From contig JAEUKZ010000056.1 in the NCBI GenBank assembly GCA_016793045.1, positions 1 to 42,769 on the forward strand: a stretch of DNA of 42,769 nucleotides, in the 5' to 3' direction. Under the pieces are notes generated by a model that saw only the letters and a list, made by a program, of their open reading frames with translations, had not been told where the DNA came from and searched no databases. Position 1 is the stretch's first letter; every line of letters starts with the position of its first letter. This stretch comes from Alphaproteobacteria bacterium (GTDB taxonomy: Bacteria > Pseudomonadota > Alphaproteobacteria > CACIAM-22H2). A program made the translations under genes and the position numbers. Positions 30,667 through 42,769 of this stretch are shown here, piece by piece.

Positions 30667-30680
30667 TTGATTCACATCAA
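30667..30680. promoter_or_regulatory. FNR/FixK box TTGATTCACATCAA upstream of the CBS-BON gene
   Basis: The perfect TTGAT-N4-ATCAA palindrome matches the FNR/FixK/Dnr consensus. Its centre is about 70 bp upstream of ATG 30743. If it acts at -41.5, transcription starts near 30715 and leaves a leader of about 28 nt. Two more boxes of the same type lie at 34872 and 36840. Confidence -1.
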
Positions 30681-34871: not shown

Positions 34872-34885
34872 TTGATCCAGGTCAA
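34872..34885. promoter_or_regulatory. FNR/FixK box TTGATCCAGGTCAA between host-attachment and alcohol dehydrogenase genes
   Basis: Matches TTGAT-N4-[AG]TCAA. The centre is about 66 bp upstream of ATG 34944, the same spacing as at the other boxes, and about 90 bp upstream of the divergent host-attachment start. It could serve both genes but best fits the alcohol dehydrogenase. Confidence -1.
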
Positions 34886-36839: not shown

Positions 36840-36853
36840 TTGACCCAGATCAA
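36840..36853. promoter_or_regulatory. FNR/FixK box TTGACCCAGATCAA between two universal stress genes
   Basis: Matches TTGA[TC]-N4-ATCAA. The centre is about 68 bp upstream of ATG 36778 and about 114 bp upstream of ATG 36960. On the plus strand GAAAAT (36878-36883) lies 24 bp downstream of the box and could be the -10 for the 36960 gene. A bidirectional site is likely. Confidence -1.
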
Positions 36854-38266: not shown

Positions 38267-38893
38267 TCATTCGTCGAGTCGGCGCAGTTCGATCGGGACT
38301 TCGGCCAGACGCTGGAGCACGTGCGCGGTCTGTGCGGTCGGCCACCAGTCGTAGAGGAAGATCTGCAGCGGTCCCCACATCGCGACCCAGCCGAGGATCA
38401 CCAAGCCCTCGGCGAGGGCGCGCGAGAATGCTTCCGTGGGCAGCGTGAGCACGAGCTCGCGCAGCGTCATGCACACGATCAGGAACACGAGCCCGATGGC
38501 GAGGCTGATGCGGCCGCGCCGGAACGACAGGCGCAGGTCGCGCTGCACGCTGCGCCGGCGATAGTCGAAGTAGTTGTGGATCGCCTCGCCCACGCGCGAC
38601 TTGTCCGCCCAGGTCAGTTCATCGGCAGGCAGATGGATCACCAGCTTGATCGGCGCCTTGTGGCCGAGTTCGCGCGCCGCGCCGACGAGATAGGCGTCGG
38701 CATCGGGGTCGAGGTCCTTCTCGTGGAACGGTGACGGGTCGAGCGAATTGAAGAGCTGCGGAAGCCGGCGCAGGCTGAGCTCGATCAGATAGGTGCCGTC
38801 TTCGATCCGGTAGGGCGGACGGGGCGGGATGCGGGCGGACGGCGGCGGCCGGTCGGGTGCGAGCGGTCTCGGCGCGTCGTCCGGCCCGCTCAC
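38267..38893 (-). CDS. Membrane protein of unknown function, coupled to cytochrome c lipoprotein
   Basis: The product is 208 aa from GTG 38893. The N-terminal part is cytoplasmic (RIEDGTYLIELSLRRLPQLF and LDPDADAYLVGAARELGHKAP), followed by two membrane helices (about ISLAIGLVFLIVCMTLRELV and LAEGLVILGWVAMWGPLQIF) and a short C-terminal tail. I do not recognise a named family. The GTG start overlaps the stop of the cytochrome c gene (GTGA), so it is translated with it in the hsp20-cytochrome-membrane protein unit. Convergent with the small conserved gene at 37868. Confidence -1.
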   Translation of the reverse strand: MSGPDDAPRPLAPDRPPPSARIPPRPPYRIEDGTYLIELSLRRLPQLFNSLDPSPFHEKDLDPDADAYLVGAARELGHKAPIKLVIHLPADELTWADKSRVGEAIHNYFDYRRRSVQRDLRLSFRRGRISLAIGLVFLIVCMTLRELVLTLPTEAFSRALAEGLVILGWVAMWGPLQIFLYDWWPTAQTAHVLQRLAEVPIELRRLDE

Positions 38894-39321
38894 GGACGCG
38901 GCGCCCGGTCGAGCGAGGCGATGTAGGCGACGACGTCGTCGCGCTCCTGCGGCCACAGCCGGAACGTCGGCATCGGCAAATGGAGATCGTCCATGAAATG
39001 CCGCAGTGCGTCGGGGCGGTCGCCCCAGCGCTGGGCGATGTCCTGGAAGCTCGGCGCACCTTCGGCCGGCCGGGCGACGCGCCGCTGGCGCGGCTCGATC
39101 CTGTGACAGCTGGCGCACCAGGCCTGCGCGATCCCCTGCCCGCGCTCAGCCGAGCCGGTGACGACGACCGAGGCCGCCGGGGCGGGTGGTGCGGCGGGCC
39201 CGCATCCGGCGACCGCGACGGCGAGAATCGCCGCGAGCGCGCGCAATCCGGCAAAGGCCCCCGCCGCGTCGTGCGCGACGGGGGTCGCTGCGCGCCGGCG
39301 CCGCCCGGACGGGCGGATCAC
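38890..39321 (-). CDS. Cytochrome c family lipoprotein
   Basis: The product is 143 aa from GTG 39321. A signal ends in a lipobox ALAAILAVAVAGC with C40 as the lipidated residue. The mature part has one haem motif C69-ASCH73 in AWCASCHRI and a likely axial Met in LPMPTFRLW, followed by DVVAYIASL typical of class I cytochromes c. It would be attached to the membrane facing the periplasm and carry electrons to an oxidase or reductase not in this window. Its start overlaps the hsp20 stop (GTGA), giving a coupled operon. Unusual long basic N-terminus before the hydrophobic part. Confidence -1.
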   Translation of the reverse strand: MIRPSGRRRRAATPVAHDAAGAFAGLRALAAILAVAVAGCGPAAPPAPAASVVVTGSAERGQGIAQAWCASCHRIEPRQRRVARPAEGAPSFQDIAQRWGDRPDALRHFMDDLHLPMPTFRLWPQERDDVVAYIASLDRAPRP

Positions 39322-39827
39322 GCCGCGCGTCCGGCGCTGCCGGCCTGGCCGATCGGTATCTTGCGTTCGGCGGTCTTGACCTCCGCCGGCTTGGGCAGGC
39401 GGATGGTCAGAACGCCCTTGTCGAATGTCGCCTGCACCGCGGCGGCGTCGGCGGCAAAGGGCAGGGCGATCGCGCGTTGGAAGCTGCCGTAGGACCGCTC
39501 CATCACCTGCCAGTTCTCGCCCTTCTCGGATCTCTCCGCCTTGCGTTCGCCCTTGATCGTCAGCAGGTCGTCGGTGAGCGTGACCTCGACGTCCTTCTGG
39601 TCGAGCCCGGGCAGATCGGCGCTGACGACGATCTCGTTGGCGCTCTCCTTGACGTCGATGCTCGGCGACCAGCGCGCGATTCCTGCCGGCTCGATCGCGG
39701 CGGCGCGCGGGACGCCGCGCAGCATGTCGTCGAACAGCCGGTTCATCTCACGCTGCAGCGAGCTGAAGGGATCGTCGCGGTCGGCCTGAGGCACCCGCGA
39801 TCCGAACGGCATCAGCGATCTGAACAT
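39318..39827 (-). CDS. Hsp20 / alpha-crystallin small heat-shock protein
   Basis: The product is 169 aa. The alpha-crystallin domain begins PSIDVKESANEIVVSADLPGL and ends FDKGVLTIRLPKP; the C-terminal PIGQ tail is also typical. It is a cytoplasmic ATP-independent chaperone. ATG 39827 is chosen because GGAGGT lies 6 bp upstream; upstream in-frame ATGs at 39839 and 39845 would put this ribosome site inside the coding region. It begins the three-gene unit with cytochrome c and the membrane protein. A half-match to an FNR box (TTGACGTGGGTTAT, 39913-39926) lies upstream but is not convincing. Confidence -1.
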   Translation of the reverse strand: MFRSLMPFGSRVPQADRDDPFSSLQREMNRLFDDMLRGVPRAAAIEPAGIARWSPSIDVKESANEIVVSADLPGLDQKDVEVTLTDDLLTIKGERKAERSEKGENWQVMERSYGSFQRAIALPFAADAAAVQATFDKGVLTIRLPKPAEVKTAERKIPIGQAGSAGRAA

Positions 39828-39957
39828 GATGACCTCCATCGTCATGTGGGCGGCTGCGGCAACAGCCGCTGCCGCAATGATAGCAGGATGCGCAGCGGGC
39901 CGGCGCGGGTGCTTGACGTGGGTTATTGGCCGTCGATGCGCCGCGGCGCCGGCATCA

Positions 39958-40998: not shown

Positions 40999-41019
40999 GT
41001 ACGCGAAAACCCCTACATG
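40999..41019. promoter_or_regulatory. 21-bp element (copy 1) upstream of the Crp/Fnr gene
   Basis: The plus strand reads GTACGCGAAAAC then CCCTACATG. Copy 2 at 41497-41517, read on the minus strand, agrees at 18 of 21 positions (shared GTACGCGAAAA, then CCTAC, then TG). It overlaps the last codons of the receiver-only gene and lies about 97-117 bp upstream of the Crp/Fnr ATG at 40902. Candidate FixJ-type regulator target. Confidence -1.
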
Positions 41020-41423
41020 CCCGGGCAGGGGTCGCCGATGACCTCGCTGATCGTCGCACGCAGCACGTCGAAGGCGACCGGCTTGTCGAGAAAGGCGATG
41101 GCGCCGAGTTCGCGGGCGCGCCGCTTGGCGGACGCCTCGGCGCGACCGGACACCATCACGACCGGCAGCGTCGATCCGTCGGCCTTGAGCCGCGCGAGCA
41201 CGTCCAGGCCGCTTTCGCCGGGCAAATTTACGTCCAATATCAGACACTTGCCGGCGCCGGGATCGGCGCGATCGAAGAACTCCTGGCCCGAGGCGAAATC
41301 CTCGACCGGAAACCCGAACGCCGTCAGCAGTGTACGCAACGAATCCCGCACGGCTTCGTCGTCGTCGACTACATAGATCATCGGGGCCCAGACATCGGCG
41401 AAATCGTCGACCTGCAAAAGCAT
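41013..41423 (-). CDS. Receiver-only response regulator
   Basis: The product is 136 aa: one receiver domain with VVDDDEAVRDSL, acceptor D64 in LILDVNLPGESG and the switch KPVAF. No output domain follows. The N-terminus before MIYVVDDD is short and non-homologous, so ATG 41381 is an alternative start (122 aa). It lies between the FixJ-type regulator and the Crp/Fnr regulator, an order I recall from Bradyrhizobium fixLJ-fixK2. It may be a phosphate sink or an allosteric partner of the FixL-type kinase. Its upstream region carries the 21-bp element. Confidence -1.
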   Translation of the reverse strand: MLLQVDDFADVWAPMIYVVDDDEAVRDSLRTLLTAFGFPVEDFASGQEFFDRADPGAGKCLILDVNLPGESGLDVLARLKADGSTLPVVMVSGRAEASAKRRARELGAIAFLDKPVAFDVLRATISEVIGDPCPGM

Positions 41424-41496
41424 TTCTGCATGTTCCCCCCACCGCGCCCCCGCGTCGATGACCTACATTAAAGGAACGTCACAGACGCGGCGCCGT

Positions 41497-41517
41497 CACG
41501 TAGGTATTTTCGCGTAC
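41497..41517. promoter_or_regulatory. 21-bp element (copy 2) upstream of the receiver-only gene
   Basis: The plus strand reads CACGTAGGTATTTTCGCGTAC; the complement is 18/21 identical with copy 1 at 40999-41019. It lies 74-94 bp upstream of ATG 41423, just after the FixJ-type gene end. Orientation relative to the transcribed gene is opposite to that of copy 1. Confidence -1.
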
Positions 41518-42168: not shown

Positions 42169-42769
42169 TGCCGTCGGTAGGGGACTCGGTTGGTGCTTTG
42201 GCGACAGGCACGGTGAAACGGAACACGGCGCCGCCGGTTGCGCCCGCTTCATACCATAGCCGGCCGCCATGCGCTTCGATGATCGAGCGGCAGATCGACA
42301 GCCCGACGCCCATCCCATCCACCTTGGTCGTAACGAAAGGCTGGAACAGTTTGGCCTCGACGTCGGGCGCGAGCCCGGGTCCGGTGTCGGCGACCGCAAC
42401 CTCGATCATCCCGTCTTCGACCGTCTTCGACGAGATGTGCACTTCCCGCAGCGGCGAATCGGTCATCGCCTCGCGCGCATTGCGGACGAGGTTGAACACG
42501 ACCTGCTGGACATGGACGCGGTCGATCGAAGCGGACGGCAGGTCGGCGGAGAGCGCGAGCCGAACCCGCGTATCGCGCCCGCGCGAGCCGACGAGCGCCA
42601 GCGCCAGCGCCTCCTCGATCACCTTGTTGAGGTCCTCGGCGCGGTACTCGATCGGGTGCTTTTCGATGAACCCACGCAGCCGACGGATGATCTGCGCCGC
42701 GCGGTCGGCCTGCTGCTCCACTTTCGCGAGGATGCCGTCGAGCGGCTTGCCCTGCGCGCTCGCCGCCGC
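42146..42769 (-). CDS. fixL: FixL-type sensor histidine kinase, C-terminal part (5' truncated by window end)
   Basis: 208 codons are visible, to the last base of the window; the gene begins further right. The visible part has the second DHp helix (EQQADRAAQIIRRLRGFIEK) and the ATPase domain: N-box VFNLVRNAREAM, DTGPGL, and GVGLSICRSIIEAHGG. The phospho-His, PAS and any haem domain are outside. RIIRRLR followed by HATPase in this style and FixJ-type partner downstream with 23-bp overlap support the FixL call. Without the PAS domain oxygen sensing cannot be claimed. Confidence -1.
   Translation of the reverse strand, partial: AAASAQGKPLDGILAKVEQQADRAAQIIRRLRGFIEKHPIEYRAEDLNKVIEEALALALVGSRGRDTRVRLALSADLPSASIDRVHVQQVVFNLVRNAREAMTDSPLREVHISSKTVEDGMIEVAVADTGPGLAPDVEAKLFQPFVTTKVDGMGVGLSICRSIIEAHGGRLWYEAGATGGAVFRFTVPVAKAPTESPTDGNGERSDA

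Follow-up and report, generated by a model that had tools for sequence, protein, structure and literature searches.

Introduction

The FixJ site of the S. meliloti fixK promoter reads TAAGTAATTTCCCTTA, SELEX gave GTAGTTTCCC and GTAMGTAG as motifs, and across Rhizobiales and Caulobacterales fixK is preceded by an imperfect palindrome of 18 bp (PMC4999443). In Rhodopseudomonas, the fixK promoter contains GTACGTAG, which is bound by FixJ (PMC13327599). The Bradyrhizobium diazoefficiens locus is arranged as fixLJ-bll2758-fixK2 (PMC9104804), and bll2758, a response regulator, was listed among the proteins changed under micro-oxia (PMC6515984). In Caulobacter, FixT, a single receiver, inhibits FixL and carries a 4-Cys Fe-S motif that was called unique to it (PMC7078487).

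We analyzed a window of 42,769 bases, that is, the whole stretch of alphaproteobacterial DNA under study, in which a sequence-only reading had noticed a 21-bp element occurring twice next to a gene for a FixJ relative.

Results

A FixL-FixJ-type locus at the right end of the window

At the right end of the window, the minus strand encodes, in this order, a kinase, a FixJ-type regulator, a single receiver, and a Crp/Fnr regulator (Table 1). The best match of the truncated kinase was FixL. The final 141 bases of the window (42629-42769) are exactly the first 141 of contig C341, the contig break lying inside fixL, and C341 carries the N-terminal part of the kinase with a haem PAS domain (match to solved FixL haem-PAS domains, E 3e-44). 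Both HDSYI, with its His, and IIGIGR, with its Arg, are kept in the alignment; we take this His and this Arg to be the residues holding haem and oxygen. Because the truncated kinase continues on the other contig with a FixL haem-PAS domain, the full order of the locus is, as read from homology, fixL-fixJ-receiver-Crp/Fnr. The window kinase aligns to the kinase of a relative (G006), which has a MASE1 domain, from residue 26 on.

The regulator P0001 combines a receiver with a GerE helix-turn-helix and is closest to FixJ, its best solved match being B. japonicum FixJ (5xso, E 3e-51). Alignment puts the phosphoryl acceptor of P0001 at Asp60. The NCBIfam FixJ model was the best in the library, but at 248.7 bits it stayed just under the equivalog cut-off of 255; we therefore call P0001 FixJ-type, and not FixJ in the NCBIfam sense. 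At E ≤ 1e-25, it was the only FixJ-like protein in the genome. Its FixJ recognition helix, ISPRTVEIHRA, is identical in the homologues of two relatives' loci (L144 and L145), both of which carry sites of the kind described below.

Table 1. Genes and predicted operators of the locus (window coordinates)
Feature	Coordinates	Strand	Remarks
FixL-type histidine kinase, C-terminal 207 aa	42146..42769	-	truncated by contig end
FixJ-type response regulator P0001, receiver + GerE/LuxR HTH, 214 aa	41524..42168	-	
FixJ-type operator 2 (predicted), 16-bp dyad core, + strand TAGGTATTTTCGCGTA	41501..41516	-	21-bp element at 41497-41517
Single-domain receiver P0002, 136 aa	41013..41423	-	occupies the place of Bradyrhizobium bll2758; candidate for FixT-like feedback
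FixJ-type operator 1 (predicted), 16-bp dyad core, - strand TAGGGGTTTTCGCGTA	41000..41015	-	21-bp element at 40999-41019
Crp/Fnr-family regulator P0003, 288 aa	40036..40902	-	occupies the place of fixK2; recognition helix GLTSVHVCR, divergent

P0003 has the Crp/Fnr fold and domains, and its best solved match was FixK2 (E 9.5e-16). Its recognition helix, however, reads GLTSVHVCR as against GLTLETVSR in FixK2. Since it lacks E..SR, we regard P0003 as FixK-like by position and do not file it as FixK. Relatives' loci yielded 26 crp hits, with one locus entering twice. The helix was GLTxETVSR or GMTCETVSR in 17 of them, GLTxETVCR in 3, and GLTKVHVSR in 1 (the neighbor of L190); in the other 5, no helix could be read.

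On contig C341 of the same genome, fixL is directly preceded by a second Crp/Fnr gene (L211, 1566-2252), with the helix GITPESLSR. On that contig (4500 of 5503 bases covered), neither an exact FixJ site nor an FNR box was found upstream of fixL or of this second crp. Downstream of the Crp/Fnr gene of the window are genes for a cytochrome c and an Hsp20 protein (38890-39321 and 39318-39851).

The two elements are imperfect dyads placed before the receiver and Crp/Fnr genes

The two copies had been reported as identical at 18 of 21 positions and inverted, and sequence reading and a pattern search showed coordinates, identity, and orientation to be exact. The label "inverted" nevertheless carries little meaning, because each copy is an imperfect dyad by itself. 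On the minus strand, both read CATGTA-N12-TACGT, and each contains a 16-bp core in which the half-sites TAnG and CnTA stand 8 bp apart. The core of operator 2 lies just past the fixJ stop codon, in the fixJ-receiver gap, with 85 bp between its centre and the receiver start downstream. The core of operator 1 contains the receiver stop codon (TAG, 41013-41015, the coding sequence ending at 41013), and is centred 105 bp before the start codon of the Crp/Fnr gene.

As noted earlier, the 21-bp copy 1 overlaps the coding end of the receiver gene, covering its stop codon and last codon. This overlap had been put forward as strong evidence of function, but by itself it is weak, since the core shares only the stop codon with the gene. 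The same overlap with the receiver stop was found in two relatives' loci (L172 and L187). A scan for promoters and terminators gave nothing; in particular, it detected no sigma-70-like promoter close to the sites.

We then asked how unusual the repeat is. At 18/21 or better, the window contains some 292 pairs of 21-mers in inverted and 286 in direct orientation, an abundance we put down to its GC-rich base composition. With so many inverted pairs of equal quality, the repeat alone proves nothing and was rejected as evidence in its own right; what distinguishes the two copies is structure and place. With up to 3 mismatches, GTACGCGAAAANNCCTAC matched the window at the two copies and nowhere else (mean of shuffles 0.09; none of 100 had two matches). 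Likewise, the stricter dyad TAVG-N8-CBTA occurs in the window only as the two copies (expected 0.22; 1 of 100 shuffles had two).

Genome-wide, GTACGCGAAAANNCCTAC had no third place at 0 or 1 mismatch, the next best having 2. The looser dyad with flanks had four exact places, two of them the window copies and the others on contigs C234 and C383, and the relatives' consensus site was found nowhere at 0 or 1 mismatch and twice at 2 mismatches. As close matches elsewhere in the genome are missing, we claim no additional FixJ targets, and a genome-wide regulon was rejected, the strict element being confined to this locus.

The dyads resemble published FixJ sites

The S. meliloti fixK site, as given in PMC4999443, and the window copies have the 16-bp TAnG-N8-CnTA layout in common. 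Identity to that site was 12/16 for copy 2 and 10/16 for copy 1, the half-sites being TAGG/TACG in the window as against TAAG in S. meliloti. Like the S. meliloti site, copy 1 lies upstream of a fixK-type crp/fnr gene adjoining fixJ. Unlike the S. meliloti fixK promoter site as described there, the window locus has a second copy, before the receiver gene. A literature search for the phrase "FixJ box" gave no match.

The dyad recurs at the same positions in relatives

Of 72 scanned loci with a FixJ homologue, two were dropped: L182, which duplicates the record of L009, and L143, which is the window. The layout that we required, with a receiver or crp hit, was present in 32 of the remaining 70 loci, and these made up the footprint sample; L049-L142 and the pattern-hit loci, which are weaker or other matches, were excluded save for those extended to longer versions. 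The 32 are not all independent, since some share a genome or are related (L144 and L146 both come from G022; L013, L017, and L023 look alike).

The dyad TAnG-N8-CnTA was present, after fixJ or at the receiver end, in 18 of the 32 loci with this gene order, and 14 had no exact dyad in these zones. It occurred in 8/29 fixJ-receiver gaps (shuffled mean 0.42), 8/14 receiver-crp gaps (0.27), all 3 direct fixJ-crp gaps (0.10), and 2/15 stretches that follow a receiver but contain no crp hit (0.21). The sharpest control is to change the spacing: over the 32 loci, a half-site spacing of 8 gave 22 matches, while spacings of 2-7 and 9-14 gave 0-5. Because the pattern was set after TACGTA had already caught the eye in some loci, we counted separately the loci uninspected beforehand (L171-L192, n = 14). 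There, the site was found in 11/14, with 13 matches at spacing 8 and 0-4 at the others. Outside the zones (579,184 bases), spacing 8 gave 47 matches vs 8-24 at other spacings, which would be consistent with additional sites at promoters elsewhere.

In relatives, the position of the dyads is kept and their sequence varies, only half-sites and spacing being conserved; the commonest sequence is about TACGTAGnnTCCCTTA, to which the window copies are not close. Both positions are occupied, as in the window, in L144 (G022) and L145 (G006), from two genomes of one family. The site centre lies 75-112 bp from a candidate downstream start codon in most loci, exceptions being L023 (56 bp), site 1 of L145 (57 bp), and L190 (173 bp or more). 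In L173, L176, and L184, a dyad precedes the receiver gene where there is no crp hit. Comparison with related species had been proposed by the sequence-only reading, and it came out in favor of a conserved element, with the dyad at the same two places and at the same half-site spacing.

Two sphingomonad loci without an exact dyad (L016 and L020) showed, by eye, a TACGTA half-site only. Past the fixJ stop of L016, L020, and L037 (sphingomonad and Caulobacter-type), we saw CTACGTA(A/G)CGAC or TTACGTAACGAC, in which the half-site leads into a conserved stretch of another kind.

FNR/FixK-type boxes elsewhere in the window

The window has three exact matches to TTGAY-N4-RTCAA (30667-30680, 34872-34885, and 36840-36853), a motif we take to be the FNR/FixK-type box. 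The genes near them are a CBS+BON gene, one for a zinc alcohol dehydrogenase, and two divergently oriented universal stress genes. Allowing up to 1 mismatch, there are five in the window (expected 1.11; none of 100 shuffles reached five). The box-bearing region is a candidate low-oxygen island.

Discussion

In all likelihood, the two elements are FixJ operators that switch on the receiver and Crp/Fnr genes within a low-oxygen FixL-FixJ circuit. That they bind the adjoining FixJ relative, as first proposed, is supported at the sequence level by conservation in relatives, the architecture of published sites, the common recognition helix, and the single FixJ of the genome. In such a circuit, falling oxygen would cause the haem-bearing FixL-type kinase to phosphorylate the FixJ-type regulator. 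Dimers of FixJ would then bind the 16-bp dyads, whose centres lie some 85 and 105 bp before the two start codons, and would activate rather than repress two short transcription units, one for the single-domain receiver and one for the Crp/Fnr regulator. The latter would pass the signal to other genes.

A different possibility is that the sites are real operators of another regulator, for instance the downstream Crp/Fnr protein acting on its own gene or a second NarL/FixJ-family protein. The divergent recognition helix of P0003 leaves room for such a reading, but the published architecture makes the dyad FixJ-type, relatives with the standard Crp helix GLTIETVSR have the dyad too, and it stands upstream of the receiver in the three loci where no crp was hit. 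As for a second FixJ, the genome has none at E ≤ 1e-25. We consider another regulator unlikely. Chance likeness in a GC-rich window could draw on the hundreds of inverted pairs of similar quality; against it, TAVG-N8-CBTA is confined to two places in the 42,769 bases, both upstream of the expected genes, and the dyad recurs at those places in relatives, which makes mere coincidence very improbable. Least credible, and largely refuted, is that the receiver gene sits on a small mobile or mobilisable element with the copies as its terminal inverted repeats: the copies do flank that gene in inverted orientation, but they lack a target-site duplication, relatives keep dyads of differing sequence at the same two places with only half-sites and spacing conserved, the receiver is syntenic in many loci, and none of ten proteins scanned around it is a transposase.

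The FixJ-operator reading can be extended to a circuit with two locus-encoded FixJ-driven outputs, in which the relay, its helix changed from E..SR to V..CR, would recognize a different box from FixK, the standard FNR/FixK-type boxes of the island would be read by another protein, and the paired operator would be old across many alphaproteobacterial families. We put this forward tentatively and regard it as rather doubtful as a whole.

The locus most likely encodes an oxygen-sensing circuit of an already known type and holds no surprise for a specialist. It adds two modest extensions: the Crp/Fnr relay has an altered helix, and FixJ is predicted to target the receiver gene across families. The receiver is probably a feedback element, a role made plausible by Caulobacter FixT, a single receiver that inhibits FixL. 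FixT, as described in PMC7078487, and P0002 are both single receiver domains in a FixLJ locus, and P0002 is likely FixJ-controlled; P0002 lacks the 4-Cys Fe-S motif of FixT, having two Cys. With the B. diazoefficiens locus, as outlined in PMC9104804, the window shares the succession of fixJ, a response-regulator gene, and a crp/fnr gene, and it differs from that locus by the second Crp/Fnr gene before fixL and by the divergent recognition helix of its Crp.
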